From contig JBBELK010000365.1 of assembly GCA_037783545.1 (NCBI GenBank), forward strand, positions 557,550 through 621,549: DNA of 64,000 nt, written 5' to 3'. The notes under the pieces are model-generated. The model was not told the DNA's origin. It searched no databases and saw only the letters and a program-made list of their open reading frames with translations. Every line of letters begins with the position of its first letter. The stretch's first letter is position 1. Below, piece by piece: positions 15,435 to 59,583 of the stretch. The DNA comes from Henricia sp. BOLD:AAB3569 (Eukaryota > Echinodermata > Asteroidea > Spinulosida > Echinasteridae). The position numbers and the translations under genes were made by a program.

Positions 15435-15892
15435 CTATTTCGGCGGACTAGATTGGTTTCTGATGCTATTACTTATTGGGAAAATGGGGATTGGTAAAGG
15501 GTAGACTGGTTCCCGCTCCACTATTCTACATACAACGACTGAATTTGAGGACCGACTATTGTGTTTAAAATAGCACTAAGCATTACGTCATGCATTTATT
15601 GATATGAGCACTTAACTGTTAATTTTCAAGAGTGTATAACAAATTGAAAACGGTTATTCCATATATGACAAATTCAATTTTCAAAATTGAACATTAAAAT
15701 TGAAAACTTGTGTGCATCATTGTAAAATAAACATGCGGTGAAACACTGTTCCAGTAAAAAAATCGTACGAAGTCATTGTGCAATTTTAACAAAAAGCCCT
15801 ATGTACTAACTATGTTTGATGTAGATTACAAATTGTTAGGTTTTTGTATGAATAATGAAATATTAAGAGATTTTTAGACAAAAAATAATTTT

Positions 15893-16115
15893 TTATTTCA
15901 ATCGTCGCGTGACCTTTTAGTGCTTTGCGTGCTGGTGCGTCCATCGTTTATACTTCATAGGAGGGCGTAGATTATGCACGGTGTACGGGCGTTTTGGAAT
16001 AGTTGCGAGCGGTTTAAATCCGTGTGGTTAGCTCATGCAGCACATTAATGGTGTCGTCATTTGCGCATACTTTTCCAAATCACGATTGTCAATGCAAGAT
16101 CTATGGGTTTATATA
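15893..16115 (+). promoter_or_regulatory. Conserved 5' non-coding block of the Helentron
   Basis: This stretch ('gtgcgtccatcg', 'tacttcatagga', 'cgttttggaatag', 'ggttagctcatgcagc') is nearly identical in copy B (about 44172-44394). A clearly diverged version recurs at 33093-33320. It lies about 0.8 kb upstream of the reading frame. Retention in a diverged copy suggests a promoter or other cis-acting role, which is inference. No certain TATA box or start site is visible. Confidence 0.4.
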
Positions 16116-16851
16116 TCTGTGGTGGACAGCTGGCACGTACGTTGTGCGAATACCGCGCCCTCTATACTGAAGTAATTTCGTGAGGTGGGTATTAAATGGT
16201 GGTGTCGATATATTGTAAATGGGTAATGTTATTTATTGCAAAATGTAATAATAGTGGGAAGTTAGTGATTTAGGTTTTGTTATTTGGTGTTAAAAAATAA
16301 CGATGAATAAATTAGCATTGACTTTGTGAAGGTTGCATTGAATGAATGTTCAGGCACAAATTGGAGTTATAAAAGGTTCAGGTTGTCCGGGAAGTGGGCA
16401 AGAATTTCGGCGCATTGCGATTTGTGTACGATAGGCCTACATCCTACACCTAAACAACTTTATTGATGTTTGCAATGCTTTATGGTATGAAATGACGTGA
16501 ACTGGGTAATGTTTTTGTTCCTTTTCACGAAAACCAAAAAGAGTTTGAGAACCAACTTCCTACCACTGAGACCGACATCTTTTCCTATACTTCATGACTA
16601 AATGCAGTATTTTAAGATATGTACATCATTGTTTGGCAGGTAGCCATATGGTCATTGTCAGAAGAAATGACTATTATAAAATTGCAGTTTCATGTAAAGT
16701 GATTTGGTTCTATAGAATGATTAAAAAATGTTAAAAGTGATAGAATGTTCAGGAAGTTAAAGAAAAATTACATCAAGTTGTGTGGATGTTATTTGAAAGT
16801 GCCTTGTGTTGAAGATATTGTATGAATAAAGATATTAAAGATGTGAATTAC

Positions 16852-16870
16852 ATATTTTTTTTCTTTTCAG
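16852..16870 (+). other. Probable splice acceptor before ORF1 (copy A)
   Basis: A polypyrimidine tract followed by 'ttcttttcag' ends at 16870, 14 bp before the ATG at 16885. Copy B has the same signal ending at 45150. This implies a non-coding 5' exon upstream and an intron in the 5' UTR. The donor was not identified. Confidence 0.55.
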
Positions 16871-16884
16871 AAAATTGACGTGCT

Positions 16885-19800
16885 ATGCAGTTTTCGGAGC
16901 CATCACTTTCCCAGTCTGTTTTTGTTCCGTCGCATTTCATCGACCTATCAGCCATGCAGTCATCTCATTTCATTCCTTCTGTATCTCCCTGCCCTTCATC
17001 ACCATCCACTTCACTATCCTCTGTGTGCGGGGCTCACCAGGCCGCCAATCCTGGCAGAATTTACGAATATGGGGCTCACCAGGCCATTAATCCTGGCAGA
17101 ATTTACGAATATGGGGCTCACCAGGCCATTAATCCTGGCAGAATGTACGAATGTGGGGCTCACCAGGCCATTAATCCTGGCAGAATGTACGAATGTGGGG
17201 CTCACCAGGCCATTAATCCTGGCAGAATTTACGAATGTGGGGCTCACCAGGCCAATAATCCTGGCAGAATGTACGAATGTGGGGCTTACCAGGCCATTAA
17301 ACCTGGCAGAATTTACGAATGTGGGGCTCACCAGGCCACTAATCCTGGCAGAATTATCAATGAATATAATGAAGTAAATAATGAAATTGATGATGAATCA
17401 AGAATGAATGGTGAAGTGTGTCATTTTGAAGAATCCGAGGTGAAGTTTGATGGTTGTACTAAATTGAGATTTAACAAAATGTTAGAGTTGAAGAAGCAAA
17501 GAATTAATAAAACGACCAAAAACAGATTGATGAATCAGAAAGCAGTAACACTCTTGAGAGTAAGTGGCAAGACATGTTGTAGTCGAAACCAGATGTTGCA
17601 TTGTAAATTTGAATTGGTTAAGCAAAAAGCAGTAGTACAGTTGAAGCTAAGTGGGAAGACATGTTGTAGCCGAAATCAGGTGTTACAGTGTGATGTTGAA
17701 ATTTATCGAGAGCCAAAACAGGTTTCTAAGCCTAATAGAAGAAAGATGAGAAGAAACGAACGCAGGCATGCTTACAATAGAAGTAAAGATGGCAAGAGAA
17801 TTGAAGTTAAAATGACCAAGAAACAGAAAAGGCAGTGGTGCGAAAATTCTCGGAAAATAAGAAAACACACAAAGAGAACATTGAGCATAGTAGTGAAGGA
17901 AATGCAGAAAGTGCAATTGACATGTAAAGTGAAACAAACAAACACGGATTCAAGGAACAACAAATTTCACTTTCAGAAAGGAAATGTGAAAGACAAAAGT
18001 GTTGTTTCTAATGTGACGAGTAAAGTAGAAAACTCGACAAAGACACGGTTTGGTTTGAACAAGGACAGTGAATTAGTGACAAATAAGTCATGTCCTAAAC
18101 AGTGTAAGATGTGTAATCAGAAAATAACAGGTCAAGAAAGATTTATGATGTGTGATAAGTTAGGTGTGTTCTATCATGTAAAGTGCTTGACATTCTGTAG
18201 TGAAAGTGATTGTGAAAAATCAGCCAATCGTTGTTGTCTGTGTGATCAAGTTTGTACATCAAGTGAAGGAGTTCTCAAGTGTGATAGTTGCAGTATTAAC
18301 TATCATGTAAGATGCACAGGATTTTTGAATGCATTGTCTGGACTTCAAAGCAAGGCAGTGTCATGGATGTGTTGTAAATGTAGTCAATTTAATTATGTTA
18401 CAAGTACATATTTAGTACATGATTTTGGTATTCCTGCAGATAAGAACATCTATGAAATCAGTGATGATGGGAGGAGTTCACAAACTGATGAAATTATTGT
18501 GGTAAGTGATAGCAAGGTGAAATTTGTAATTATTGATAATCAGAACTGTTGTCATGGTAGAGACACAACAGAAATGTTTCGACAAAGTGGAGGTTATTCT
18601 TTGCGCAGTAAGAAATGTAGCAAAAATGGTAATGGAGTAAAAGGAGCAAACAATGTCAAAGATCAAAATGTCAAGGAAAAGGGTAAGGAAAAGGGTAAAG
18701 AAATGAGGTCAAAAAGAAACATGCGATACAATTTACGGAGTACATGTAGGAAAACACAGGAGTTTGAAGATGTAGAAATAGTTGATGATGGAGTGAACTT
18801 GCTGAAAAGAAAGGTTGGGGACAGTGTGGACTCTTGTAATGAGGATACAGCATCTAAGAAGCACAAACTTGATTTAGATAGAAATAATTCATTGACAAAT
18901 AAGAAATGGGAAATGGGAAAAAAAACAGGCATGTCTAGAGGCAATTATGTGCATAACATTGAGAATGAAGAAATCATGGAAAAGGTTATTAAAGGCAGTT
19001 TTCATCAAGGTGATTTCAGATTCGGCAATAGTAGCGGAAAGCAGTGTGTTGCAAATAGCTTATGTGCAATATTGTACAGCACAGTTAAGAAGTTGAACAT
19101 GTGGCACTCTAATGACCTTGATTTTGTGTTAAATAGTGGAAATGAATTGTATGTTTATTTGTCTTGCAGTTCTACTGTAATGCATGAGTATTTGTTAGTT
19201 AGTGAGTTGCCTGATGAAATTGATGTTTTCAGTAAACATTTTAATATTAAGAGTCATGAACCATTGATGGGAACTTTTAAAGATGACAGGAATTTAGTTG
19301 AATTCAACATGACTTCACTGAGAGATGCTTTGGAACAAATGCTTCAGAAATACATTGCATGCTTTGTCTGTTTCTACGAAAATACATTTGCTGTAATATC
19401 TCAAGATGGAATGTATTATATTTTTGATTCACACTCCAGAAATAAGAATGGACATCAAGACGGCGAGGGTCAAAGCTTACTGAAATGTGTGTCATCATGG
19501 CAAGGTGTGTACAGGTATTGTACTGAACTTGCAAAATCAATGAATTTGCGTGACAGTGAACAATTTGAAGTGACGGGTGTTTCTGTTTGGACAGATGATA
19601 TTAGCAATTCATGTATCAGTAATGTTGATAACAGTCAAACTGGTAGTGATGCACTTACAAGAAGTGATATACAGAACACAGAAGATGATGATGATGATGA
19701 TGATATAAAAATTGTGGGTTATAAGCACTCAGTGGATTTAAAATTTGTTCCCTTAACATCTGCCACTAAAATTGCATTGTGCAACAAATTTAAGATATGC

Positions 19801-20088
19801 CAGATTAATCTTAGTAGTGACGACATTTCCATCAATTGTGAAAGGCTAGGTAGACCAGACCATGTACAAAATATTCAAGGTGATGGTAACTGTTTTTTTA
19901 GAGCTGTTTCTTATGCTATCTCAGGAACTGTATGTAATCACATGCAACTCAGAACAATGACTGTTTGTCATTTGTTGGAAAATGCACCTAAATTTAAAGG
20001 TTATCTAAGGGAAGGTTATATGACAGTTGAAGACTATGTAACGAGGTCAGGAATGTTTGATAATGGTACCTGGGCCACAGAGGTATAA
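16885..20088 (+). CDS. Helentron polyprotein, N-terminal part (copy A): repeats, zinc fingers, C76-like protease, OTU start
   Basis: This 1067-codon frame is the N-terminal third of the transposon protein. Residues 48-157 are eight 14-residue repeats (consensus CGAHQAINPGRIYE). Residues 170-390 are very basic with two near-identical 'SGKTCCSRNQ' segments. Residues 403-500 hold two Cys/His clusters, the second PHD-like (CCLCDQVC ... CDSC ... HVRC ... WMCCKC). Residues 700-890 form a cysteine-protease domain: G-K-Q-C721 with N724, and F-D848-S-H850, the arrangement of tegument-USP/C76 peptidases. OTU begins at 998 (GDGNCFFRA; D1000, C1003). The frame stops at TAA 20086-20088, where copy B has GAA (48357-48359), so OTU is cut before its histidine. 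The ATG at 16885 follows a splice acceptor. Protease activity is inferred. Confidence 0.85.
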   Translation: MQFSEPSLSQSVFVPSHFIDLSAMQSSHFIPSVSPCPSSPSTSLSSVCGAHQAANPGRIYEYGAHQAINPGRIYEYGAHQAINPGRMYECGAHQAINPGRMYECGAHQAINPGRIYECGAHQANNPGRMYECGAYQAIKPGRIYECGAHQATNPGRIINEYNEVNNEIDDESRMNGEVCHFEESEVKFDGCTKLRFNKMLELKKQRINKTTKNRLMNQKAVTLLRVSGKTCCSRNQMLHCKFELVKQKAVVQLKLSGKTCCSRNQVLQCDVEIYREPKQVSKPNRRKMRRNERRHAYNRSKDGKRIEVKMTKKQKRQWCENSRKIRKHTKRTLSIVVKEMQKVQLTCKVKQTNTDSRNNKFHFQKGNVKDKSVVSNVTSKVENSTKTRFGLNKDSELVTNKSCPKQCKMCNQKITGQERFMMCDKLGVFYHVKCLTFCSESDCEKSANRCCLCDQVCTSSEGVLKCDSCSINYHVRCTGFLNALSGLQSKAVSWMCCKCSQFNYVTSTYLVHDFGIPADKNIYEISDDGRSSQTDEIIVVSDSKVKFVIIDNQNCCHGRDTTEMFRQSGGYSLRSKKCSKNGNGVKGANNVKDQNVKEKGKEKGKEMRSKRNMRYNLRSTCRKTQEFEDVEIVDDGVNLLKRKVGDSVDSCNEDTASKKHKLDLDRNNSLTNKKWEMGKKTGMSRGNYVHNIENEEIMEKVIKGSFHQGDFRFGNSSGKQCVANSLCAILYSTVKKLNMWHSNDLDFVLNSGNELYVYLSCSSTVMHEYLLVSELPDEIDVFSKHFNIKSHEPLMGTFKDDRNLVEFNMTSLRDALEQMLQKYIACFVCFYENTFAVISQDGMYYIFDSHSRNKNGHQDGEGQSLLKCVSSWQGVYRYCTELAKSMNLRDSEQFEVTGVSVWTDDISNSCISNVDNSQTGSDALTRSDIQNTEDDDDDDDIKIVGYKHSVDLKFVPLTSATKIALCNKFKICQINLSSDDISINCERLGRPDHVQNIQGDGNCFFRAVSYAISGTVCNHMQLRTMTVCHLLENAPKFKGYLREGYMTVEDYVTRSGMFDNGTWATEV
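17026..17357 (+). repeat. 42-bp coding tandem repeat, eight units (copy A)
   Basis: Eight in-frame units of 42 bp ('ggggctcaccaggccatta' core) encode GAHQAINPGR(I/M)YE(C/Y). Variation is mostly conservative: A, I, N and T at one position, H/Y at another. The antisense strand is also open (17014-17331), a by-product of the repeat. Copy B has the same eight units at 45306-45637. Confidence 0.9.
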
Positions 20089-20091
20089 ATC

Positions 20092-23000
20092 ATGGCAATG
20101 GCAGACATGCTGGGTGTTAATATATACACATATGATGATGAAAATAAATGGTATATAGTTTCTGGGCATCTGTGTAGTAGTGATGCATTGGCAGATACAG
20201 GTATTTATTTGTATCACAGAGATCGAGTCCATTATGACTTTGTGTTGAGTGTTCAGGATTTGATAGCAAATGAACCAAGTAATTGCACTGAAGAAACTTT
20301 ATTGCAAAGTACTAAAGTGGAAGTGCCGGTCACAAGAATGTCTTGTAAGAGACGTAAACGTCCTAATTTGAGATTGAAACGAAAGTTAGAAAGAGAGAAG
20401 AAAAGAGAAAAATATCAGAAGGCCAAAGATGTAGGAATTAAAGAAGTAAGAGCTAGTTGTGCAAAGTCGAAATATCATTGGGATGAGATACACAGAGCAA
20501 ACAAGGTTAGTACTGCAAAAAATAAGTATCAAGAGAATGCAGGACTCAGGGAAAGAAAGCTTAACAGTACAAAGACCAAATATCACCAGGATAAGAAACA
20601 CAAGGCAAGAAAGATTAGCACTGCAAAGACTAAATATCAGCAGGATGAGAAACACAGGGAAAGAAAGATTAGCACAGCTAAGACTAAATATCAGCAGGAT
20701 GAGAAACACAGGGAAAGAAAGATTAGCACAGCTAAGACTAAATATCAGCAGGATGAGGCACTCGGGGAAAGGATGATTACCACTGCGAAAAATAGGTATG
20801 TTACAGATTCTAAATACAAGATAAAGAAATTGAAGAATGAGAAAAGAAAATATGTTGACGATGTTGTCTATAGGCAAAGAAAAATGAACAGTGCAAAGTC
20901 TAAATATCACAATAATGTAATTTATAGAAACGCTCTCATTAAGTCTATAAAGAGGAAGTATCACAACAGTGTAAATTATAGAAATGGTCTCATTACATCT
21001 ATGAAGAGGAAGTATCACAACAATGTAAATTATAGAAATGCTCTCATTAAATCTATGAAGAGAAAGTACCACAACAATGTAAATTATAGAAATGCTCTCA
21101 TTACATCTATGAAGAGGAAGTACCTCTGTAATCATCTTTATAAGAGGAAGTTGGTAACATTTCAAAAAATGAAGTATCGTTGTGATGTTGATTATCGTAC
21201 TAAAATGAAACAAAGAAATTTAAATCGACAAAAGAAAAAAAAGAAAACATGTCGTATCATGAATAATGTTATGATGAATTGGAGAAGAGAGATTTCAAAC
21301 GGGCCTGAGTATGTGTGTGCCGTTTGTTTGAAACTGTTGTTCAAAAAACAAGTTATCAGATGTAAGAGAGAAAAATACAGCATTAATGATTGCATATCAA
21401 CAATGTATTTATGTAGTTGTTTCTGCAGAGAAAAGTGTACATATGAATGTCTAGCAAGTAAGTGTAGCAGATCTGTTTTATGGATTTGTTATACATGTCA
21501 CAGGAAGTTGCTGCAAAGGAAGACTCCACAAGAAGCTTGTACAAATAATTTAAAAGTGGTAGACATTCCAGAGGAATTGAGTTGTTTGAATGCTTTGGAG
21601 GAGCATCTTATTTCAATAAATTTGCCATTCATGAAGATGATAGCACTACCTAGAGGAGGTCAGAATGCAGTGCACGGTCCAGTTGTGTGTGTACCTTCAA
21701 ATATCACAGAAACAGTGACAACATTACCAAGATGCAGAAATGCGGATCAGTTAGTCAGAGTTAAGCTGAAGAGGAAACTCTCATACAAAGGATATTATCA
21801 GTATCAATTTGTTAACAGACAACATGTTGAAAATGCCTTGTGTTATCTTAAGAAAAATAATCTTTGGTATAAAGATATTGAAATGAATTGTAATTGGACA
21901 GATCCCTTGGAAAATGACAATGAAGATGAAGTTGAGAGTACATCAGGGCAAGAGTCTGAGGAAGAATCAAATGAGAGCGATGAAGAAACAGATGATGATC
22001 GTTTGCGTGGTATGCCTCTTGACACATGTTTACAACCTGTAGATATTGGACAGGAAGTGCTTGATCAATACTTTGATGATGTACTTTGTGTAGCACCTTG
22101 TGAAGGTAATAGCCCAGTCAGAGTGCTGATGGAAGAGGGTAATGAGGCCAAATGCTTTCCAGCATTGTTCCCAACTGGCAAATGCACATATCACGATGAA
22201 CGCAATATGAGGTTGACACTCTCTAGATATTTTCACAACAGGCTAATGCATGTTGATAATAGATTTGCTAGAAATACACAGTACATTTTTTATGCACAAT
22301 ATTTGTCCGAAATTGAAAAGGTGATGTCCAGTGTTTCGATTGCAATGCGTCAGAGCTCTAGTAAGGTGCACTGTCGTAAAAACTTTAATGCAAACATGAT
22401 TAAAGATAGACAGCAACTAAAAAACATTTTGCAGTCAGACAGTGGCTATAAATTTCTGAAGCCAATCAGAGGAACACCCCCATTCTGGCAATCAGCACAA
22501 AGAGATGTTATGGCTATGATAAGGCAGCTTGGAATACCAACGTGGTTTTGCTCATTTTCTGCAGCTGATTTGAGATGGCCTGAGGTCATCAATACAATTT
22601 TGAAACAACAAGGTGATAAACGAAATATTGAAGATTTGGATTGGAATGAGAAGTGTATAGTATTGAGAAGTAACCCTGTAACTGTAGCGCGTATGTTTGA
22701 CAAGAGATTTCACACATTCTTGAAAGATGTAATCATGTCAAAAGCAGAACCTATTGGAAAAGTCAAGGATTATTTCTACAGAGTAGAATTCCAACAAAGA
22801 GGATCTCCACACACACACTGTTTGTTTTGGATTGAGAATGCTCCAAGACAAGGCGTTGATAGTGACAGTGAAGTGATTGAATTCATTTATCAATACATCA
22901 GTTGTAAGTTGCCATCAGTTGAAGAGGATGAGGAGTTGAATGAGATTATCAGTCATGTCCAGCGGCATAGCAAGAAGCATTCTAAATCTTGTAGAAAGAA

Positions 23001-26000
23001 GGGCACTGAGTGTAGGTTCAACTTTCCAAGGCCACCGTCGACCCAGACATTTATTACTGAGCCACAGCCAACTGATCATGCTGATGCTGATGAAAGTACT
23101 GAAAGTGATGATAAAAAGGAACATGACGAAGCTAAGGAGTTATTGAAGTCTGTCTGGAGTGCAATACAGGATGAAAAGAATCAGTATATGTCAACATCAG
23201 AACTATTTGAAAGTATCAACATTACACAGGTTAATTTTGAGAAGGCCAACAATGTTTTGAGTAGGAAATGTAGTATCATTCTTAAGAGAGAACCTCAGGA
23301 TGTATGGGTGAATCAGTACAATCCTGATTTAATAAGATGCTGGAATGCTAATATGGACATACAGTATATCAGTGATCCATATTCGTGCGCTGCCTATGTT
23401 GTCTCATACATGAGTAAGTCTGAACGTGAAATGGGTCACTTATTATCTCAAGCTCAGCGTGAGGTGCAGAAGGGTAATTTAGATGCACGACAAAGTATGA
23501 AGGAGATTGGTAGTGTGTATCTACATAATCGTGAAATATCAGCCCAGGAAGCAGTGTTTCGTGTTTGTAGTCTGAGATTAAAAGAGGGATCAAGGAAAGT
23601 GGAATTTATACCTGTTGGTGAAAACCCGGTTAGAATGAGTTTGCCATTGAGTGTGATTCAGGGCAAATCTGAAGATGATGAAGATATCTTTATGGCTAGT
23701 AAAATTGATCGTTACAAGGCAAGACCGGATATTGATGAATTCCAAAACATGTGTTTGGCAACATTTTGTTCAGAGTATAGAATTATTTACGGTGCAAGTA
23801 CGTTTCCTAAATCAAGATTTTCGCCGGTGTACACACTTAAAAATGGTTTGGGTCACATACAGAAACGTACTAGAACAGATCCAGCAGTCATACGATATCC
23901 TAGATTTTCAGTAAGTCAACATCCAGAAAAATACTACCATATTATGTTACAGTTGTTTCTTCCATATCGTGTAGATGCACAGTTGAAGCCCCCGCAGTTT
24001 GAAACCTATGAACAATTTTATACAAATGGTGCTGTTTGTCTAAATGGTCAGTTGCAAAGTGTGAATGTTGTTGTTCAAAGTAATCGATCAAAATATGAGA
24101 CAAATATTGATGATCTTGAAGCAGCACAAAAGTATGTTGAAAAATTTGGTATGCAGGAAGATGCATGGGCTTTGATTTGTCCAGTATCTGAGCAGGAAAG
24201 AATTGAATGTGAAGCGAACCGTCAGCCAGTAACAGAAGAAGAAAATGAATTTGATATTCCAGATTTACAGCTTGAACACCAGAATGATAAAACATACAAT
24301 ATTGAACCGCATTCAATGAAGATATCAAAGCAAGATGCTATGTGTTTACTGAGATCACTTAATGTGGAACAAAGGAGAGTATTCAACAGAATTCGAGATT
24401 GGTGCTTGCAGAAATTAAACGGCAACATTGTCGAGTCTTTCCATGTATTTGTAACTGGTGGAGCTGGGACGGGAAAAAGTCATTTGATAAAGTCAGTATA
24501 TTACGAAGCGACAAGACTCTTTGCTAGAACACTTCAAAACCCTGACAATGTTTCTGTATTGATAACGGCACCCACTGGAGTTGCTGCTTTTAATATAAAT
24601 GGAAGTACAATTCACAGTGCACTGTCAATCCCCATTGATGCAAGGCTGCCATATATACCTCTTGGTGATGAGAAATTGAATACTCTGAGGAATTCCTTGC
24701 AAGATCTTCAGATTATGATTATTGATGAAATATCCATGGTTGATCATAAAATTCTGTGTTATATCCATGGACGTTTGCGTCAAATCAAACAAACGCGTGA
24801 TCAGAAAATGTTTGGAAATATTAGCATTTTGGCTGTTGGTGATTTTTATCAGTTGCCTCCTGTAAAAGGGAAAGCACTGTATCAAAGATCAGTTACCGTA
24901 GATTTATGGAACGATTACTTTGAGAAAGTTGAATTAAAAGAAATTATGAGACAGAAAGAAGATACACAATTTGCAGAAATGTTAAATAGGCTACGTGTGA
25001 GAACTAAACAAAAAAAGATCCTGGATGAAGATGTTGCAACGCTAAGATCACGAGAAACTGGAGAGGATTGGGATGATGCATTACATATATTTCCTTGTAA
25101 CAAAGAAGTTAATGAATACAATATGAAAACATTGTTTGCAAAGTGCAGTGATTGTACGTCTATTGTAGCAAATGATTTTCAGAGGAATTCTGGTAAATCT
25201 AAAAAGACAATACAAGTGAAAAAGACAAAGAAGTCGCTGCACAGTACATTGCCTGACCTGTTGTGGCTTGGAATCGGTGCAAGAGTAATGCTAACAAAAA
25301 ATATAGATGTATCCGATGGACTTGTTAATGGAGTACTTGGAACTGTGTGTGAAATCATAATGTTGTCCGACAAACCTGAGCCTAAATGTATACAGATTGA
25401 GTTTGATAACAAGAATGTTGGGTCTAAAAGGAAAAAGAAATGTCTGTCATCTGATAAGCTGATCATTGCGATTGAAAAGGAAGAGGAAAATGTGAGTAAA
25501 GAGATAGTTAGACGACAGTTCCCCTTAAAATTAGCATGGGCATGTACAGTTCATAAAGTGCAAGGCTTGACTACACAAAAAGCAGTGGTATGTCTCCAGC
25601 GCACATTTGCAGCTGGTCAAGCATATGTTGCCTTAAGCAGAGTAACGTCACTTAATGGACTTGTGATTCAAGATTTTGATGAAAAATTTGTATATTGTAA
25701 TGGATCAATTGCAGAGTCATTGACAACTATGCAAAATTTCATTGATTCTGAAGTAGATATAAGAAAGCCACTGTCTAATGAAATGGTGATCATGCTCCAC
25801 AATATCCAAGGACTGAAGGAACACTACTTGGATTTAAGTTGTAACAATGATATGATGGGTGCAGATTTCATATGTCTTACAGAAACATGGTTGGATGATA
25901 GAGTACCGCATGATACAGAATTAACTGATTTCAAATCATATCATCAAATCAGAAGTCTTTCGTATGATAATATAAGTAATGTGACAGAGAGATTGAAACA

Positions 26001-26460
26001 ACAATGTCACGGAGGTGTTGCTGTGTATGGTAAAAGAAAGTGGAGTTTGAGCAGGCTAGACATTGGTGTGCAGAATTTGGAGTATATTGCATTGCAAGTG
26101 ATCTGTGAACTATCATACTCTGTGGTGATAATTTATCGCCCACCATCGTACTATGTAAATGAATTCATTGTTAATATGAAGTTTCTGCTGAACGAACTTC
26201 ACAAAGTATCTAATAAATGTATCGTAATGGGTGATTTCAATGAAGACATTTTGAAGCATTCTTCACAGATTGAAAAATTAATGCACAGTCATGGGTACAG
26301 ACAGTGTGTCACAGAACCAACAACAGAGAATGGGACACTGATTGATCATGTATATGTTAGAAATATGGGCTCTCTGGATGTGGTTGTGAATGTTGTTCCT
26401 ACATACTACAGTTATCATGAAGCTGTACGTATTGCAATCGGCAGAAATCATGTTTCGTAA
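20092..26460 (+). CDS. Helentron Rep-helicase-endonuclease (copy A, after the nonsense codon)
   Basis: This 2122-codon frame continues that at 16885-20088, one codon after its stop. Residues 1-60 complete the OTU fold (H47 in VHYDFV). About 120-370 are 18-residue basic repeats (KTKYQQDEKHRERKIS; KRKYHNNVNYRNALITSM). About 395-470 are Cys-rich and 480-600 DUF6570-like. An acidic stretch (615-650) follows. The HUH Rep domain has PHTHCLFW (H907, H909) and paired tyrosines Y1102 and Y1106 (YVVSYMSK). The PIF1 helicase has Walker A GGAGTGKS (K1462), Walker B IIDE (D1545, E1546), GDFYQLPP and 'QAYVALSRV'. The C-terminal EEP nuclease has LTETW (E1931), GDFN (D2048), LIDH (D2085) and H2109. The usual Asp before that last His is replaced: the motif is S-Y-H, not S-D-H. 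Together these give cleavage, strand transfer and unwinding functions for rolling-circle transposition. Confidence 0.9.
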   Translation: MAMADMLGVNIYTYDDENKWYIVSGHLCSSDALADTGIYLYHRDRVHYDFVLSVQDLIANEPSNCTEETLLQSTKVEVPVTRMSCKRRKRPNLRLKRKLEREKKREKYQKAKDVGIKEVRASCAKSKYHWDEIHRANKVSTAKNKYQENAGLRERKLNSTKTKYHQDKKHKARKISTAKTKYQQDEKHRERKISTAKTKYQQDEKHRERKISTAKTKYQQDEALGERMITTAKNRYVTDSKYKIKKLKNEKRKYVDDVVYRQRKMNSAKSKYHNNVIYRNALIKSIKRKYHNSVNYRNGLITSMKRKYHNNVNYRNALIKSMKRKYHNNVNYRNALITSMKRKYLCNHLYKRKLVTFQKMKYRCDVDYRTKMKQRNLNRQKKKKKTCRIMNNVMMNWRREISNGPEYVCAVCLKLLFKKQVIRCKREKYSINDCISTMYLCSCFCREKCTYECLASKCSRSVLWICYTCHRKLLQRKTPQEACTNNLKVVDIPEELSCLNALEEHLISINLPFMKMIALPRGGQNAVHGPVVCVPSNITETVTTLPRCRNADQLVRVKLKRKLSYKGYYQYQFVNRQHVENALCYLKKNNLWYKDIEMNCNWTDPLENDNEDEVESTSGQESEEESNESDEETDDDRLRGMPLDTCLQPVDIGQEVLDQYFDDVLCVAPCEGNSPVRVLMEEGNEAKCFPALFPTGKCTYHDERNMRLTLSRYFHNRLMHVDNRFARNTQYIFYAQYLSEIEKVMSSVSIAMRQSSSKVHCRKNFNANMIKDRQQLKNILQSDSGYKFLKPIRGTPPFWQSAQRDVMAMIRQLGIPTWFCSFSAADLRWPEVINTILKQQGDKRNIEDLDWNEKCIVLRSNPVTVARMFDKRFHTFLKDVIMSKAEPIGKVKDYFYRVEFQQRGSPHTHCLFWIENAPRQGVDSDSEVIEFIYQYISCKLPSVEEDEELNEIISHVQRHSKKHSKSCRKKGTECRFNFPRPPSTQTFITEPQPTDHADADESTESDDKKEHDEAKELLKSVWSAIQDEKNQYMSTSELFESINITQVNFEKANNVLSRKCSIILKREPQDVWVNQYNPDLIRCWNANMDIQYISDPYSCAAYVVSYMSKSEREMGHLLSQAQREVQKGNLDARQSMKEIGSVYLHNREISAQEAVFRVCSLRLKEGSRKVEFIPVGENPVRMSLPLSVIQGKSEDDEDIFMASKIDRYKARPDIDEFQNMCLATFCSEYRIIYGASTFPKSRFSPVYTLKNGLGHIQKRTRTDPAVIRYPRFSVSQHPEKYYHIMLQLFLPYRVDAQLKPPQFETYEQFYTNGAVCLNGQLQSVNVVVQSNRSKYETNIDDLEAAQKYVEKFGMQEDAWALICPVSEQERIECEANRQPVTEEENEFDIPDLQLEHQNDKTYNIEPHSMKISKQDAMCLLRSLNVEQRRVFNRIRDWCLQKLNGNIVESFHVFVTGGAGTGKSHLIKSVYYEATRLFARTLQNPDNVSVLITAPTGVAAFNINGSTIHSALSIPIDARLPYIPLGDEKLNTLRNSLQDLQIMIIDEISMVDHKILCYIHGRLRQIKQTRDQKMFGNISILAVGDFYQLPPVKGKALYQRSVTVDLWNDYFEKVELKEIMRQKEDTQFAEMLNRLRVRTKQKKILDEDVATLRSRETGEDWDDALHIFPCNKEVNEYNMKTLFAKCSDCTSIVANDFQRNSGKSKKTIQVKKTKKSLHSTLPDLLWLGIGARVMLTKNIDVSDGLVNGVLGTVCEIIMLSDKPEPKCIQIEFDNKNVGSKRKKKCLSSDKLIIAIEKEEENVSKEIVRRQFPLKLAWACTVHKVQGLTTQKAVVCLQRTFAAGQAYVALSRVTSLNGLVIQDFDEKFVYCNGSIAESLTTMQNFIDSEVDIRKPLSNEMVIMLHNIQGLKEHYLDLSCNNDMMGADFICLTETWLDDRVPHDTELTDFKSYHQIRSLSYDNISNVTERLKQQCHGGVAVYGKRKWSLSRLDIGVQNLEYIALQVICELSYSVVIIYRPPSYYVNEFIVNMKFLLNELHKVSNKCIVMGDFNEDILKHSSQIEKLMHSHGYRQCVTEPTTENGTLIDHVYVRNMGSLDVVVNVVPTYYSYHEAVRIAIGRNHVS
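20440..21190 (+). repeat. Coding tandem repeats of a basic Lys/Tyr module (copy A)
   Basis: Two kinds of degenerate unit of about 54 bp (18 residues) run head to tail: one with 'TKYQQDEKHRERKIST', then one with 'KRKYHNNVNYRNALI'. Copy A has about four more of the first kind than copy B, which explains most of the length difference between the two proteins (about 75 residues). The segment is probably helical and nucleic-acid binding, by composition only. Confidence 0.75.
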
Positions 26461-27535
26461 CAATATTTTCTCCAAATATCTCAATATAATTTTGATAAAC
26501 AAGTTTGAATGTTTGCCTAATTAAATTGCCTATGTAATTATTTAATATAAAGGTACAGTGCACATAAACATACCAGTGGGCATGTTAATTACGCTAAATG
26601 CACCCGACTATTGTCTGAAATTAATGACATAATGCATGTATACGTGATTGAAAGTGTCATTTAACGTAATTATTTTTAATTAACAGGTGCTATTTGGTTT
26701 CTCCAGTTATGAACACATGTATTTTTGTCATTTCTGCATAGCACACTTGTTTTATTCACAATTGCATATGTTTGACAATAAGTGACTTTTAAAAGTAAGT
26801 TTTAACTCAAAGCAAGTCACCAGTCTACAATGAAGAAATCATGAATTAGATCATTTATTATGCATAGGAAACGTGTTGTAACGTTTATGTATGCTCAGTG
26901 ATAGTTAATTGTTATTTTATGTATGCTCAGTGATAGTTAATTGTTATTTTAGGTGAGCGGAACTTGTCAAAGCTTATCTGACGATCATGATCTACACACA
27001 TTAAAAATATTCAGTGCACTAAACAGGAGAAACTAATGCATGGGTGGGGTAAGTGCAGTGTGGAATAAATACAAATGGAACAAAAAAGCATCACTTTTGT
27101 ATGCAATCAAATAACTATAGTACTGAAGGCCAAGGCAAGCATATCCACATGTATCATTTGGACACTATGCAGTTAAATTATACACTAAATAAATCACTTC
27201 TAATTGAAAATGTGGGAATTTTATTAATTTTAAATAAAATCATGCATATGTAATATAAATTGAAGTACATATACCATCATAAGTAGTGCAGTTTAAAGGA
27301 ATTTATTATAAATAGTATTGAGTAATTCATTTCTTATGTTTTAGTTCATGCTATTGTATTCCTCGTAGAAAATGTGCAAAGAATCACTATTTCCTTCAAA
27401 TATAATTAAGTAAAAATTAAGACTATTTGAGGCATGTTAGATTCTTTTGATAAAACAAGCATATTATACAGCAATAGCATTTTGCATAATTGTCGGAAGT
27501 CGGAACTGAACAATTATTTTTGTTTCAATTTGCAA
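26461..27535. other. Helentron 3' non-coding region, proximal part (copy A)
   Basis: Alignable to 54516-55424 of copy B with small indels. A direct repeat of about 40 bp occurs here ('tatgctcagtgatagttaat' twice, near 26888 and 26928). No ORF of note. Confidence 0.6.
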
Positions 27536-27745
27536 ATTTATTTGCCGGCATGGCCAAGTACGTTGACTCCCAACAATTGGGTGAGAACTTGGTGTTGTGG
27601 AGACAACACCTGGTCATGGTACATGTACATGTACTTGTGCCCTTGAGCAAGGCACTGAACTGCAATTGCTCCATCCTTCGGAAGGGATGTAAAGCTGTTG
27701 GTCCAGTGTGTTGTATAATGCACTTAAAATATCCCAGAGCACTCT
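27536..27745 (+). mobile_element. SINE nested in Helentron copy A
   Basis: The segment carries 'gcccttgagcaaggcactga', 'ccatccttcggaagggatgt' and 'aaagctgttggtcc'. This body organisation is typical of tRNA-derived SINEs in marine invertebrates. It is also present in copy B (about 55424-55590, with a small internal deletion), so it inserted before the two copies separated. Confidence 0.6.
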
Positions 27746-27796
27746 TTTATTAAGAGCTATGGGATTTTCCGGTGCCTCTGTCAGTTTTATGACATA

Positions 27797-28375
27797 TTGC
27801 ATGTTGTGGGCATGCTGAGTGCTGATACAAGTGTCCAAATGACTCGCAGTCAGTTATTGCTTGTGAATGCATCACGCCGGTTGTGGGCTAGATTTCAAGC
27901 AACTGGTGGGGTTGCTGGCAGATGGAAGGGCAACCCAACCTCATGTTACGACAGGATGCCAAGACGAAAACACCATGCGGACACTAATATCTGAACTTTA
28001 CAGCTTGAACAGTGATAGGTCAGTGTGCAGCAGTCCAAAAAAGCCCACTGACTTTGTCGTTGATGACAATTGTACTTGATAGCGATACCAGAATGTCGTT
28101 GCAGAACCTGCTTTAAGGCTTATTCTCAATCAGTCTCTTAATGCACATTCCCACACAGCCAGAAAAGTGATGCAGTACGTCTAGTGCCATGAGATTCAGA
28201 GTCTACCCTGGCATATTTTCAGTCTGAACCACAATCAAATCAAGCACACATTGAATGAACTGGAGCAGCAAGTTCATTGTGGTTGCTACAAGTTCAGTTA
28301 TGGAAACTGGTAGACTCATTCAGCGATGCATCTCGGCAGGCACTGCATCAGCAGGAGTCACACACATTAATGGTA
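27797..28375 (+). pseudogene. Tc1-like transposase relic (copy A)
   Basis: Translated fragments in shifting frames resemble a Tc1/mariner-family transposase. The N-terminal HTH-like part reads 'RRLWARFQATGGVAGRWKG' and 'HVTTGCQDENTMRTL'. A C-terminal part reads QIKHTLNELEQQVH, in the place of the usual PIEHxWDELxRRV. A terminal stretch 'RLIQRCISAGTASAGVTHIN' follows. The central catalytic region is not recognisable and there are multiple frameshifts and stops. The same relic lies in copy B (about 55648-56225). It is old, nested and inactive. Confidence 0.55.
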
Positions 28376-28690
28376 TGGTACACACTAATGCCACCTTCCT
28401 TGCTTTTATGTGGAAAAATGCACTGAACTGTAAAATGCTGATTTTGTTTTGTTCTTGTTTTACTAGCCACAGAGGCCATTGCCTCTGTTAGCCTGGTTTC
28501 GGCATCCTTTTTTAATTCTTCCAGACTTTTTGATTTTCCACCGAAAGTGCTCTTTATAAATACAAAAATGGCAGTGCCCTTTGAGTGAGGAAATTCCTAC
28601 CCTGTTTTCATCATCACAGATGTGCTATGTGAACCCAATCAAACAGATGACCAATTTAAAAAAGAAAAATTGCTCATATGGCAGCTACTG

Positions 28691-28956
28691 ACCTTTATCA
28701 CAGTGTGGCAATCCTTGCCTTTCTCCTATTAAAATGAATGTAACCAAAGCAAGGCCTGCAGAAAAAGAAATAGTTTGGTCTTGTGTTGAAAATCTTCATT
28801 GTGTGCATCACAATGACATACGCGCAGCGCAATGAAAAAAACGCGCAGCGCAAACAGAGATTCTCTCAAAACGACAACGTATAAGTTTGCAGCACTAATT
28901 ATGCCTGACACATACTATGCAAAACAAGACAAAGATGGACGCATCATGATAAAGGT
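28691..28956. mobile_element. MITE nested in Helentron copy A
   Basis: The ends 'acctttatcacagtg' and 'catcatgataaaggt' are imperfect inverted repeats. The body matches the intact 279-bp MITE at 36963-37241 ('gtgttgaaaatcttcattgtgtgca', in two overlapping stretches). It is also present in copy B (56567-56846). Confidence 0.75.
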
Positions 28957-29551
28957 CAATTATACTATTAACATTGTGTTGGCATTGCAAAATGAATATT
29001 AGCTGTATAGCATCCTTATCATAGTCAAGCTGCGTGACAATACTTATTATCAACACCATACAGGCACCTATCATCATGAAGCACGCCATCTTCATCATAG
29101 ATCAGGTCTCTGGTACCGTTGTCACCATATTCATCAAGGCAACCTTCCACTATGGTCATCGTCATCCATGCTCTTTTATAACAACCAGATCTCCTGGGAT
29201 CACCGCATTCTGTTGTAGGAAGCTTCTTGTAAGGGGCCTGTTTGAACAAGTTATGTGCACTGTATGTTCAATTGTTAGACCATTCTTTTTAAGACCAAAT
29301 TTATGTGAACATTACATGTATGTCCTTAAAGAGTTGCAAGGGAAGAAACTCTTTGTCAGGAAAACCATCAGCGACATTCTATTAAGTGTTTACACCGTGT
29401 ATTAATGATATACAGTCCGTGGATCAGAAATTGATTTAGACTTGCGTCGGGGAAATTTGAATGGTAAGTAAGGTTGTTTTTGCCCTTACCCGACGTAATT
29501 ATTAACACTATACTCGATGCTTTCCCGAGACACTATGAAAAACTTCATATC
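28957..29551. other. Helentron 3' cargo with a minus-strand open stretch
   Basis: Alignable with copy B (56847-57452). A 74-codon minus-strand frame (29025-29249) has plausible protein composition ('EYGDNGTRDLIYDEDGV') but is frameshifted in copy B and matches no family I recognise. It could be a captured exon fragment. Confidence 0.35.
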
Positions 29552-29624
29552 GTGCTCGGGTGGGACTCGAACCCACGACCTCCTGCATACAAGGCAGACG
29601 TCTTAACCACTCGACCACCGAGCT
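29552..29624 (-). tRNA. tRNA-Thr(TGU)-like sequence (copy A)
   Basis: The 73-nt minus-strand sequence folds as a tRNA. The acceptor begins 'agctcgg'. The D arm is gtc/gac with loop 'gagtggttaa'. The anticodon stem is tctgc/gcagg with loop 'cttgtat' (anticodon TGT). The T arm is gtggg-ttcgagt-cccac, followed by the acceptor 3' half 'ccgagca'. The first acceptor pair is A-A, so 6 of 7 pairs form. No CCA is encoded, as expected in eukaryotes. Because it lies inside a transposon in both copies and is followed by shared sequence, it may be a SINE head or tRNA pseudogene rather than a working gene. Confidence 0.6.
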
Positions 29625-30224
29625 AGCCAGTGATTCGAGCCGGCCATTCAACACAAATTTTTCGAACCCTATACAGTACATGTACTTATTTTTAATTTAT
29701 GTACTGCAATGTATTGTAAAATAAGTGAGTTGACGAAAATTTATTATTTGTTTCTGATCGTTAGTTGTCTAATTTTTAATTTTTTTTTTTTGGCTTGGTT
29801 TTTTTAAATTTTAAATATTGTATGTAGTGCTATTAAAGAAGTAATTGGAAAATGAAAATTATCCTCAAACACAATACAAAAAGCACCTACTAGATGGTTA
29901 ACAGCACCAGTAGTGAAAACTGTACAGATTTTATTTTAAGCAAATATGTAGAAATAAAATGTGTAGACGAAGCACACATGAGTGTGACGTCACTTACCGT
30001 GTTAACTGGGTCTCAACATTCGCTGGTTATCTGAAAAGTCCATCGCTAGCACACAGGGAAACAGTTTACTGGTTTTAGTGTACACCCAGTAAATAATGCT
30101 GTTTTCAGATTGTATTTACTTTCCTTTCCATCACGTACATGTATGACAAAAATAACAAGCTATGTTACAGTTCGTTTGTGAACCCACAATGTCCATAGCT
30201 GCAGTGCCATGGCACTAGCGATAC
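29625..30224. other. Helentron 3' cargo, segment largely missing from copy B
   Basis: About 29640-29995 has no counterpart in copy B, which passes directly from 'gctagccggtgat' to 'cgtgttaactgagtc'. The stretch 29985-30071 ('attcgctggttatctg' ... 'cagggaaacagttt') recurs in inverse orientation at 32938-33025. Confidence 0.55.
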
Positions 30225-30520
30225 AGTGAATCATATTCAAGATCTTGGTTAGTTCTCAAGGTTGTGAATTTGAATGCTGATCCAGTCTGTCCATAGAATA
30301 CAATTTATTTGTATGGTACTGTGTACTGGGTACTCTGAAATGGCTACGTGAGAATTTCATATTGATGTTTGTTTGTGTTAATGGAGGTAGGAGTGAGCCA
30401 CAATCCATAATCTCCTCTGTATTGACTCATTGGCTGAAGTGTTATGGCAGAGCGATCTAGTGAATCATATTCAAGGCCTTGGTTAGTTGTCAAGGTTGTG
30501 AATTTGAATCTTGGTCCGGT
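30225..30520 (+). repeat. 134-bp repeat, two units (copy A)
   Basis: The unit beginning 'agtgaatcatattcaag' starts at 30225 and 30459. The spacing (234) exceeds the 134-bp period seen in copy B, with about 100 bp of extra sequence between the two. Confidence 0.7.
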
Positions 30521-30977
30521 CTGTCCATAGAATACAATCATTGTATTTGTCTATTCTGAAATGGCTATGTGAGATTTTGTAATACATATCTTGATGTGTT
30601 TGACATCAGACAATCCCTGATACTTGGAGTTATGTAATAAGGGTTAATATAATGTAGGCAACTTGAACAGGTTTCCCAATAAGTGTACGCTGTATCCATA
30701 TTATATTTGTCAGCAACATTACTATTGAGTGACATAAATATCCATATACTGTAAGTATAGAGAGCCGAAGTGTGATGTGGTTGCCATGGTAATTGGCTCT
30801 AAACATCATGGCCGTCACTAAAAACTACCATTGCAAAAGCACAGGAACATGGTTCAGTGATTTTTAGTGTAGAGCCATTGCCCAGGCAACTAACAAAAGC
30901 TGACGTATTCATTTTGGCTATCTACCGGTATATAGCCCTTTGCACTGGCAGCCATGACAGGACAGTAGTCATTTAAA

Positions 30978-31690
30978 TGATTTGACAGTACATCCACATG
31001 GTGACTACCCCCATCTTATGGCTGCTGGCGCAAAGGGTCTATATTAGTGCAAACATGCATGTACTTTGCAAGAATAGAATAATTTCCAGACAAACTATTG
31101 CAATCATTTGTTTTAGTTATCAGCTCGAGCTCATTTCTTTTGTAAATTTTCTGTCATTTTTACCATTTGCATTCTATTCATGATCATCCGCTATAAAACT
31201 CTATCTTATTTATTACATTATAAACTATGTAAATGAAAATACAATCAATTTTTATAAGACAATGCATCAGTATCACATTCTCCATTTGATCCTTTTCAAG
31301 CCAATATTATTTATATAGAAAACTTATGTAGTTCTTATTGAAATGATTTGACATTAGATCATTCCACATTGTGACTATTCCCTTTTATGACTGCTGGTGC
31401 AAAGGATCTATAATTATTGCAAACATGTACAGTTGTGTATACGTTGCAAGATTAGCATTTTTTGGTTCATACAGTATTGCAATCAATTGTTTAATTCAGT
31501 TATCACTTCAGCCTCATTTCTTTTGTCAATTTCATGTTTTTATACCATCATTTGCATGCCATTTATCTGCTATAAACACTGCAATAAATATCGACTGTAT
31601 GATTGCCCACTTAACTTGATCTTACTTATTGAAATGATACACTACATGTATGTAAATAAGAATGCAATCAATTTATATAAAACATGCATA
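30978..31690 (+). repeat. Diverged tandem duplication of about 370 bp (copy A)
   Basis: 30978-31265 and 31347-31690 align to each other. Shared landmarks are 'tatgRctgctggYgcaaag', 'attgcaatca' and 'aatacaatcaattt'-type ends. Copy B carries the same pair (about 58786-59105 and 59246-59850), so the duplication is older than the A/B split. Confidence 0.6.
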
Positions 31691-31699
31691 GTCATCAAA

Positions 31700-32372
31700 T
31701 TCATTATTTAAAAGTCAGTAATATTTTACACCCGAGGCTGGGAGTTAGGGTTAAAAACAAGTTGAATTTGTGTTGTAGTGTTGCCCTATCTCTGTATTTG
31801 AGCCCATGCACTTTTACCTGTATTTATATATTTTTTTAAATATTATTTTCAAAGAAAAAATTTAACAACCGAAAAACTTATTTCATATTCTGTCTAATTT
31901 GATTTATTGTAAATTCGTGGCAGTGGGTTAACATAACCATCATAAAGGCAGCATATTTGTGTGCATCACTTATGAAAGTTTGATCTGGTTGAAACTGCCC
32001 ATAGCATGTTATTAAAAGGACCAAAATATTGGTAATACTTTAATCTGGTGTCAATCTTTATTTAGCAGGTAATTTCTAAAACCGGAAATTGGAATGTAAT
32101 CGACCTTTCACAAGATTAAGGAAGAAAAAGTGACCCATCTGTCCATCAGCAGTACTATTAAAGATAGTATCCAACTCTATCAGGCAATCAGAATCTGGGA
32201 AGGTCGGTCACATCCACATTATAATTTAACATGGCTGTTCATGGCGGGTGATACTGAAGATGGTCCCTATATAGCTCTATAGTATAAGTATAAGGCAGAC
32301 TAGGAGGCGGGTCAGTCACAGACACATTATACTCCAGTATGGCTGTCTATGGGTGGTATTAAAGATGGTCCC
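31700..32372. other. Helentron 3' cargo, non-coding
   Basis: Collinear with about 60345-60952 of copy B. No ORF or RNA recognised. Confidence 0.5.
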
Positions 32373-32381
32373 CAGCTAAAT

Positions 32382-32467
32382 CATCCTGAGATCTCATGGA
32401 ATTTCTATTCTGCAAAGCGACGCAGGAGTTAGAGAGTGCGTTAAAGGGGTACTGTTGCAAGAGGATG
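32382..32467. mobile_element. 86-bp MITE inserted only in copy A
   Basis: Begins 'catcctgag' and ends 'caagaggatg', giving a short inverted repeat catcct/aggatg. It is flanked by CAGCTAAAT at 32373-32381 and again at 32468-32476. Copy B has a single uninterrupted CAGCTAAAT at 60952-60960, the empty site. A duplication of 8-9 bp points to an hAT or Mutator type element. Confidence 0.85.
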
Positions 32468-32844
32468 CAGCTAAATAAAATAAAATCAAAGTTTGTCATT
32501 GGTAAATTCACGACACTTGGTCAGCGTATTAAACGCACTAAATTTCGGCTTTCGTATGAGACCAGCTGAGGGCGACATTCATAATTACGGTCATGTACGT
32601 TCATAGAGCTATAGTGTACGTTACTTCCATAGAGTTGTATAAGCCGTATACAACTCTATGGTTACTTCCAAGTTTGGGCGGTAGGGAGGTAAGTACGATC
32701 AGAGTGAGGTCACGGACGTATACGTCTGTGAGTGAAGTACGTTACTTGAACGTAAACTATGAATGCCGCCCTCTGCCGGTCACGTACGGATGTCGACATT
32801 TGCTGGCTTATGCAATTTTGACTTGGCTGAACTTAAATTATTAT

Positions 32845-33418
32845 AATTACGTAATCAGTGACGTCATTCTACATGGTGGTGGAAGTTTGTGATGGGGCCC
32901 ATGCGTGGGTAAATAAATGAAATAAATAAATAAATAAACTGTTTCCCTGCGCTTTACCGATGGACGATTCAGATTAGCAGCGAATGTTTAGACCCAATTA
33001 CCATGGTAACTGACGTCACACTTCACCACACTTCACAAAATGATATGTACAAATGTATACTTATTTTTTTAGAAGTAGTTTAAGCATGACTATTTTTCAA
33101 TCCTCGTGCGCGCTGTCAGTCCGCTTTGCGAGCTTCGTGCGTCCATCGCCCATACTTCATAGGAACGCGTACAATACACACGGCGTACGCGCGTTTTGGA
33201 ATAGCGTTCACCGCTTTAAACCCGCGCGGTTAGCTCATGCAGCCCATTGTGTCGTCATTTGCCCATATTTTTCCAAGTCACGATTTTCAATGCACGACCG
33301 TTGGTCTATAGGTTTATAGGTCTGTGCAACACCGTAATTTATGAATGGCGCCCTCTGCCGGTCACGTACGGAAGTCGACATTTGGTGGCTTATGCATTGT
33401 TTTACGCAAATGTTGACT
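32845..33418. repeat. Extra segment in copy A containing a diverged Helentron 5' block
   Basis: Copy B goes straight from 'ttttgacttggctgaac' into the 372-bp units, whereas copy A has this extra sequence. It includes a TAAA-type microsatellite (about 32911-32938), an inverted copy of 29985-30071 (32938-33025), and at 33093-33320 a diverged copy of the Helentron 5' block ('tgcgtccatcgcccatacttcatagg', in two overlapping stretches, and 'ggttagctcatgcagc'). Confidence 0.65.
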
Positions 33419-33600
33419 TGGCTGAACTTTGGCCTTTAATTGACCCAGAACGGAGGAATCATATGAAAATGACTCCACCCAGCAAATTGTATCCCATTAT
33501 CTGATCTATAATGTCTGCTAAATATGAAGACCCTGGATCATGTGGTTTTATAGAGGGAAACATTTTTAAAAAGTGCATATTTTGGTAATTTTCATCTGCT
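33419..33600 (+). repeat. Isolated partial 372-bp unit (copy A)
   Basis: Begins 'tggctgaactttggcc' and includes 'ataatgtctgctaaatatga' and 'ggttttatagagggaaaca', as in the main array. It is cut off near 33600. Confidence 0.75.
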
Positions 33601-34383
33601 GTCTCACAATGTAGTCAGCGAAAAAACGATTGTTAATTTTTAGTTTGTTTTGTTCACATTTGGGATGGAAATCCGATGTTTACTCGAAAAACTGATATAG
33701 GCCTACATATATTTGTCATCAAAGGCAGAAATCAGAGCACATAATTTGTTAAGATTGAAAAGAGTTTGGCCAAGAAGGAACACTTTCTTAATTAGATTTG
33801 TTGAAGATGGTTTAATAAAATCCTGACAATGACGTGATGATATCAGGCCTATATTAAGCTTTGCACCTTACTAAACCTAAAAGGAAGAAAACAAACATTG
33901 GAATGAATGCTTCACGGCAAAACTACGACATTCCCTCAATAACATACAATTACTTTCTTGTAGAGAGTGGACTCTCTTAAATAAGACTGAAATAACATAA
34001 AAGATTGTATCCTACTTAGTGTCCATCTTCTGTAGAATTACACGTCCGTGGTAGACACAGTTAAAAGTTACAGTGTCACCGTCGCAGTACAGTCGGCGCC
34101 GTGTCACACAGGGCACACGGAATAGACAGCTACGGTGAAAGATTTATTTGTGCGACGTTTGCTCGCATTGAGAACGGTCAAATCTAAAACTAGGCCCCTG
34201 GCATAACACTGGTCACTGCTCAGTCAACCGAAAACATAATGACATGATCATGGTGTCATTTTAAAGAGGAGATTCAACCCTAACAGATTATATCTCCCGT
34301 TTATTCATACGCGCCCTACTTTAGTTACAATTAGCAATAATATCTCGGTTTCGTTTTTTAAAATCCACCCTGTATATGGAAAT
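33601..34383. other. Unassigned sequence between 372-bp units
   Basis: Absent from copy B at this position. No ORF or known repeat recognised. Confidence 0.35.
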
Positions 34384-34390
34384 GTTGACT

Positions 34391-43101: not shown

Positions 43102-43171
43102 CAAATTTTCACCACCCCCACATACCTCAACACACACACATTTCCATTTTTGTTAACGCACAACTCCTATA

Positions 43172-43713
43172 TAAAATTATTATAATTACGTAATCCTTGA
43201 CGTCATGGTGACGTTTTACATGGTGGTGGACGTTTGTGATGGGGCCCATGCCTGTACCTAGTTTGATGAAAATCAAGCATGGTTGAATAGCTAATATTGC
43301 TTCATAAGTACAAACAAATACAAAAAATGTGATTTTTGAATTGGCTGAACTTTGACCTTCGATTGACCCAGGAAGGAAGGGTCAGATGAAAATGCCTACA
43401 CTAAGAAAATTGAAGCTCATGATCTGATCTAAATGTTTGCCAAATATGAAAACCCTGGGTCATATTTCGGCAATTTTCCGCTTTTTAGGCATTTTTAAAA
43501 TGTTATAATGACGTAACTGATGACGTCACAATGAAGCCATTCTTGGGTGCACACCTCTTATACTATGTCTTTGATGTCACCAAGTTTGGTTAAGATCAAT
43601 GTTTGGGAACAACCTGAAAAAGCGCCGACAACGCCCATGCGCTTTGTCTATGGAAAAAAAATCAGAAGAAGAAGAAATAAACGGAAAAAAAAGCCAAAAA
43701 ATCATAACGAAAA
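43172..43713 (+). mobile_element. Truncated Helentron 3' tail (third copy)
   Basis: Collinear with copy A from about 34964 to 35545. It holds the end of one 372-bp unit, a full unit beginning at 'tggctgaactttgacc' with an internal deletion of about 35 bp, the tail 'gcgccgacaacgcccatgcg', and the A-rich end 'atcataacgaaaa'. It stops just before where the terminal hairpin would be, and the next base is the first of copy B. Confidence 0.8.
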
Positions 43714-45133: not shown

Positions 45134-45150
45134 TTTTTTTTTCTTTTCAG
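45134..45150 (+). other. Probable splice acceptor before ORF1 (copy B)
   Basis: A T-rich tract ending 'ttcttttcag' at 45150, 14 bp before the ATG. It has one more T than copy A. Confidence 0.5.
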
Positions 45151-45164
45151 AAAATTGACGTGCT

Positions 45165-50543: not shown

Positions 50544-50564
50544 CAATCAGCACAAAGAGATGTT

Positions 50565-55590: not shown

Positions 55591-55647
55591 CATTAAGAGG
55601 TATGGGATTTCCCGGTACCTCCGAGTGTCAGTTTTATGACATATTGC

Positions 55648-59572: not shown

Positions 59573-59583
59573 ATGTAAATAAG

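Follow-up and report, generated by a model that had tools for sequence, protein, structure and literature searches.

What would a rolling-circle transposon do with two different deubiquitinase-like proteases in a single protein? The question is raised by a 64,000-nucleotide stretch of the sea star Henricia sp. BOLD:AAB3569 (contig JBBELK010000365.1, positions 557,550 to 621,549; hereafter the window), which contains a Helentron with a tegument-like deubiquitinase domain (VTD; Herpes_teg_N, peptidase family C76) and an OTU cysteine protease domain. Two copies of a recently active Helentron, both of them interrupted, lie about 28 kb apart in the window; the one long protein of this element combines a PHD finger, the VTD, the OTU cysteine protease, a Rep HUH nuclease, a PIF1 helicase and an EEP endonuclease; the identity of these domains together with a ubiquitin-directed role is assigned a probability of roughly 0.85. 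As a kind, the combination of VTD and OTU has already been published (Erven et al., 2022; PMC9741609); what is added here is a single genome with near-constant pairing of VTD and OTU matches, several lineages, many open reading frames, and conserved catalytic residues, from which OTU domains of natural transposons can be drawn.

Two Interrupted Helentron Copies

The features on which the argument depends are as follows (window coordinates, strand).

15435..35583, +: Helentron copy 1, roughly 20 kb long, its limits given by similarity to copy 2 (self-BLAST of the window)
16885..20088, +: upstream open frame of copy 1, 1067 aa, ending at a TAA within the OTU domain
18994..19584, +: VTD (tegument-like deubiquitinase, Herpes_teg_N/C76) of copy 1, with C721 at 19045 and D848 to H850 at 19426-19434
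19846..20253, +: OTU domain of copy 1, residues about 988-1123, with C1003 at 19891, the VHYDF histidine at 20230, and the TAA inside
20092..26460, +: downstream open frame of copy 1, 2122 aa, with the end of the OTU domain, basic 18-aa repeats, DUF6570, Rep, PIF1 and EEP
43714..62040, +: Helentron copy 2 (self-BLAST), with a frame at 45165-54515 in which the VTD and OTU domains are open

The similarity between the two copies starts at 15435 and 43714 and stops near 35583 and 62040, respectively; identity is 98.5% for the initial 5.1 kb and 95.3% for the 6.6 kb that follow, and then drops to 85.5% in the first stretch beyond them. Assignment to the Helentrons follows from the combination of Rep, a PIF1-like helicase and a C-terminal EEP endonuclease found with Pfam, and from a palindrome near the 3′ end of both copies, a Helentron feature (Thomas et al., 2014; PMC4067079): an identical 27-base hairpin with an 11-bp stem is located at 35552-35578 in copy 1 and at 62009-62035 in copy 2. 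A search for exact pairs revealed no subterminal inverted repeats of at least 10 nt between the end stretches compared. In copy 2 the frame is interrupted within Rep, by a stop at residue 1793.

A Tegument-Like Protease Related to a Zebrafish Helitron Enzyme

Residues 705-855 of the upstream frame match PF04843 (Herpes_teg_N; E = 3.8e-11, 43.4 bits against a cut-off of 25), and a phmmer search of solved structures with residues 704-900 retrieved the VTD of a zebrafish Helitron (8ADD_A, E = 4.1e-14), with C721, D848 and H850 aligned to their 8ADD counterparts; the next matches of this single sequence were three herpesvirus tegument proteins (E from 0.014 to 0.04). A profile built from 11 VTDs of the Henricia genome improved the match to 8ADD to E = 5.8e-25 and those to herpesvirus large tegument proteins to 4.3e-7, 4.4e-5 and 0.0019, and reached the bacterial VTD 8ADB with only 0.089. 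The catalytic cysteine with its preceding glutamine and the Asp-x-His motif correspond to the C76 layout; the pattern GxQCxxN...(F/Y)DxH arose in 5 of 20,000 residue shuffles, and the profile matches are stronger evidence than this chance test. In viral contigs searched with the VTD, 11 stretches fit a pattern and none was confirmed. A lone Herpes_teg_N match (E = 1.3e-5) at 893006-893371 of contig C899, which has no Rep match, may represent a remnant or a domesticated gene.

The OTU Domain and Its Stop Codon

The OTU domain is open in copy 2, where it matches PF02338 over its full length (positions 1-128 of 128, E = 5.2e-10, 40.4 bits) and retrieves the solved structures of OTUD1, OTUD3 and OTUD5 as a single sequence (8.1e-9, 1.2e-7 and 2.1e-7); a profile of seven OTU domains gave 6.8e-11 for OTUD5, 2.7e-10 for OTUD3 and 3.3e-10 for OTUD1. 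The D-G-N-C motif and the downstream histidine share one open frame in copy 2 and in further copies. They do not do so at 16885-26460 of copy 1, where Cys1003 and its histidine are separated by a TAA (20086-20088, residue 1068) and so fall in different frames; the upstream frame scores below the PF02338 cut-off of 23.3 (20.3 bits, E = 8.4e-4).

An earlier note on this locus, made from the letters of the sequence, had described a single frame carrying both proteases whole, an account that does not hold for copy 1, as the TAA splits the interval into 1067 and 2122 aa. The residues it had named were located correctly (C721, N724, D848, H850, D1000 and C1003, with VHYDF at residues 1115-1119), its family assignments (C76/tegument-USP, OTU and Helentron) are borne out by Pfam and by the matches to sequences of solved structures, and the PHD finger, Rep, PIF1 and EEP it had listed were all recovered with Pfam, the PHD finger on its segment alone.

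Both halves of copy 1 are otherwise open, so that a functional pair could in principle be produced through stop-codon readthrough or as two proteins. However, locus L017 (contig C1685), which shares 99.8% identity with copy 1 across 9.6 kb, is open throughout the frame; for this reason the stop in copy 1 looks like a recent lesion. Further fetched copies are interrupted, at places that differ from this one. Readthrough in copy 1 was rejected on the basis of L017, and a functional split pair is considered extremely improbable.

Co-occurrence of VTD and OTU in the Genome

A search of the genome, which has 740,731,340 bases, yielded 92 matches to the VTD query and 81 to the OTU query, some of them fragments. 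An OTU match was found on the same strand within 3.5 kb of 88 of the 92 VTD matches, and a VTD match beside 80 of the 81 OTU matches. From 150 scored Rep matches, 79 were entered after selection by hand as Helentron-like, the other 71 having no open frame longer than 426 aa; 77 of the 79 have both domains within 7 kb. VTD, OTU and Rep share one frame, defined by a Rep open-frame length equal to those of the nearby VTD and OTU matches, in 63 of the 79 cases, and 55 of these frames reach 2900 aa or more; neither window copy belongs to the 63, and two frames of this set contain two VTDs. Searches with the Pfam profiles gave 84 OTU and 82 Herpes_teg_N matches, and a few of these OTU matches may be host genes; the co-occurrence counts refer to the matches of the VTD and OTU queries.

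Two observations concern other elements. The divergent VTD of locus L035 (contig C8, 856641-857237), which is 27-28% identical, adjoins a distant Rep, and no OTU match was found nearby. On contigs C159, C585, C708, C898 and C1007, Rep matches are many, clustered, and short or stop-bearing, apparently representing a separate Helitron lineage.

Conservation and Selection

The comparison included 31 sequences (the two window copies and loci L009-L037), of which 28 fall into groups A (12), A2 (2), B (9) and C (5), and L035, L036 and L037 remained ungrouped. In sets chosen by us from the fetched loci, the catalytic Cys, Asp and His were invariant in 11 of 11 aligned VTDs, and the Asp, Cys and His of the OTU domain in 7 of 7. 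The best VTD match carried a complete catalytic set in 29 of the 30 sequences with a match (L036 has none); in L012 the motif is cut by a stop that separates Asp from His. An extra, divergent VTD in L012 and L037 has Glu replacing the Gln ahead of the Cys, and a second complete VTD accompanies the OTU domain of L020 and L021 (contigs C259 and C1966) in one open frame of about 3500 aa.

Pooled ratios of nonsynonymous to synonymous differences (pN/pS) were, in the order within A, A-A2, within B, A-B and within C, 0.350, 0.283, 0.262, 0.394 and 0.123 for the VTD, and 0.372, 0.307, 0.285, 0.369 and 0.311 for the OTU domain. For the first four comparisons, values ranged from 0.275 to 0.319 for EEP, 0.155 to 0.289 for DUF6570, 0.094 to 0.208 for Rep, and 0.103 to 0.210 for the helicase; of group C, short stretches only were fetched. 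The two protease domains thus lie near EEP, and Rep and the helicase are under stronger constraint. Between groups, constraint was weakest in the PHD finger (0.493 and 0.667); its value was 0.213 within B and undefined within A, where synonymous changes were zero. Judged from these sequence comparisons, the VTD and the OTU domain both look constrained.

Relation to Published Elements

VTDs in Helentrons were reported by Erven et al. (2022; PMC9741609), with 121 VTD-containing Helitrons that also have an OTU domain and with vertebrates, insects, cnidarians and molluscs among the hosts. The earlier note, which knew of no described Helitron with both proteases, was mistaken on this point; it had named the pair being a routine annotated architecture as grounds for refutation, and in the account of Erven et al. 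the architecture is a described one. Three zebrafish Helitron VTDs reacted with ubiquitin probes and preferred K48 and K63 diubiquitin, and the VTD of one element with both VTD and OTU was assayed; according to the same authors, the activity of transposon OTU domains had been assayed in none up to 2022 (PMC9741609). A close published counterpart is the zebrafish Helentron DrT2, in which an active VTD is accompanied by an OTU domain (PMC9741609); DrT2 differs in sequence and as a copy, and is described with a single active VTD (PMC9741609), whereas in the L020/L021 lineage of Henricia two VTDs, each with its catalytic residues complete, occur beside the OTU domain. The zebrafish Helentron DrT1 provided structure 8ADD (designated VTD2 in the results and VTD1 in the data statement of PMC9741609), the relative whose Cys and Asp-x-His align with the Henricia VTD; in contrast to the Henricia element with its pair of VTD and OTU, DrT1 is described as having two VTDs and no OTU (PMC9741609). 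OTU cysteine proteases in Helentrons were reported by Thomas et al. (2014; PMC4067079), whose elements share Rep-helicase-EEP, the OTU cysteine protease and the 3′ palindrome with the Henricia element; there, OTU is among the additional ORFs, and the word “tegument” is absent from the text. Herpesvirus large tegument proteins such as M48 have the C76 catalytic layout in common with the Henricia VTD, but they are virion proteins and their sequence likeness is distant.

Proposed Function and Alternatives

The VTD most likely strips K48/K63-type ubiquitin chains off the transposase complex of the element itself or off bound host factors, and de-ubiquitinated transposition proteins would escape proteasomal degradation, a benefit suggested for VTDs by Erven et al. 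(2022; PMC9741609); the OTU domain would act likewise on chains of a different type, probably adding a further specificity. Deubiquitinase activity has been demonstrated in print for the zebrafish Helitron relatives (PMC9741609), and we infer that the Henricia copies are active, what they act on and that transposition gains by it, as well as whatever activity the OTU domain may have. Protection against degradation as the specific benefit is a matter of about even odds. Somewhat doubtful is the idea that the VTDs and the OTU domain of the C259/C1966 lineage are non-redundant, selectively retained modules with differing chain specificities that are jointly needed by the transposition complex and cannot stand in for each other.

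Several observations weigh against the ubiquitin-directed interpretation of the VTD and OTU pair. AlphaFold predictions from single sequences were unusable for both the VTD (mean pLDDT, the predicted local distance difference test, of 39.9, which says nothing either way) and the OTU domain (32.1), so that a papain-like fold of the VTD is predicted solely from its homology to 8ADD. The Helentron copies look partly homogenised, the pairs compared for pN/pS lack independence, and synonymous divergence (dS) between groups is saturated. Finally, the pair is not universal: contig C8 has a divergent VTD without an OTU match, the Rep match at 617047 of contig C111 has neither domain, and the contigs C159, C585, C708, C898 and C1007 contain Rep matches, drawn from the 71 set aside above, and no VTD or OTU match.

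The earlier note had left a choice between action on ubiquitin and maturation of the element’s own polyprotein; the former stands as the best reading of the sequences, and the latter retains a weak hint, one linker diglycine. Both proteases might chiefly cut the N-terminal part from Rep-helicase-EEP at diglycine sites, a function that could coexist with deubiquitination: the element encodes a single long polyprotein, GG sites are frequent targets of viral deubiquitinases (PMC9741609), and cleavage of Rep, helicase and endonuclease is, besides chromatin signalling, one of the roles proposed for OTU by Thomas et al. (2014; PMC4067079). In a survey of 14 long frames out of 20 loci, with no group C copy among them, the GG of the linker motif SGGYSLR ahead of the VTD (near 18586) was kept in 13 of 14; yet the three further GG pairs that 10 or more of the 14 frames retain are explained by their position inside the folds of DUF6570, Walker A and EEP, and at this threshold no other GG occurs between OTU and Rep. 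Maturation as the chief function is accordingly regarded as unlikely. The conserved SGGYSLR, after which copy 1 has another motif of the YxLR type (RYNLRS), is a possible cleavage or binding site.

Helitrons capture pieces of genes, and the VTD and OTU domains could be captured, inactive passengers in the process of being lost, as the OTU stop in copy 1 and the stop within the L012 VTD motif might indicate. Yet the catalytic residues are retained although, across lineages, VTDs are only about 54-60% and OTU domains about 48-57% identical to the query, pN/pS is far under 1, and VTD, OTU and Rep occur together in the 55 frames that reach 2900 aa or more; decay of this kind is very improbable, and a ubiquitin-directed role of conserved proteases is preferred.

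Other Features of the Element

The remaining domains and repeats of the protein, and a neighbouring fragment, are listed below.

17029..17397, +: 42-nt (14-aa) units repeated in tandem and in frame within the N-terminal region, approximate limits
18232..18381, +: PHD finger (PF00628, E = 6.9e-7 on the segment alone; phmmer matches to PHD structures, E from 0.005 to 0.025)
20497-21012: in-frame 54-nt tandem repeats that give the basic 18-aa repeats
22231..22824, +: Rep (Helitron_like_N, E = 2.2e-36), equivalent to C365:579780-580373
24358..24975, +: PIF1-like helicase (E = 1.1e-29), residues 1424-1629 of the downstream frame
25834..26400, +: EEP (Exo_endo_phos) endonuclease (E = 6.1e-8), residues 1916-2104 of the downstream frame
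43166..43713, +: 3′-terminal fragment of a further Helentron copy, without the terminal hairpin, adjoining the 5′ end of copy 2

The PHD finger is absent from the list of the Pfam scan on the whole frame and scores only when its segment is scanned alone; DUF6570 was found with Pfam in the downstream frame. Frame lengths vary among copies, an observation noted beside the in-frame 42-nt and 54-nt repeats. A tRNA-Thr (TGT) is predicted in the long 3′ part of both copies, at 29552-29624 and 57451-57523 (both -), and could be either a tRNA carried along by the element or a short interspersed element of tRNA origin. Seven pairs of Helentron copies on the same strand, each 23-40 kb apart on one contig (the window, C43, C203, C303, C330, C741 and C921), suggest head-to-tail arrays or segmental duplication.

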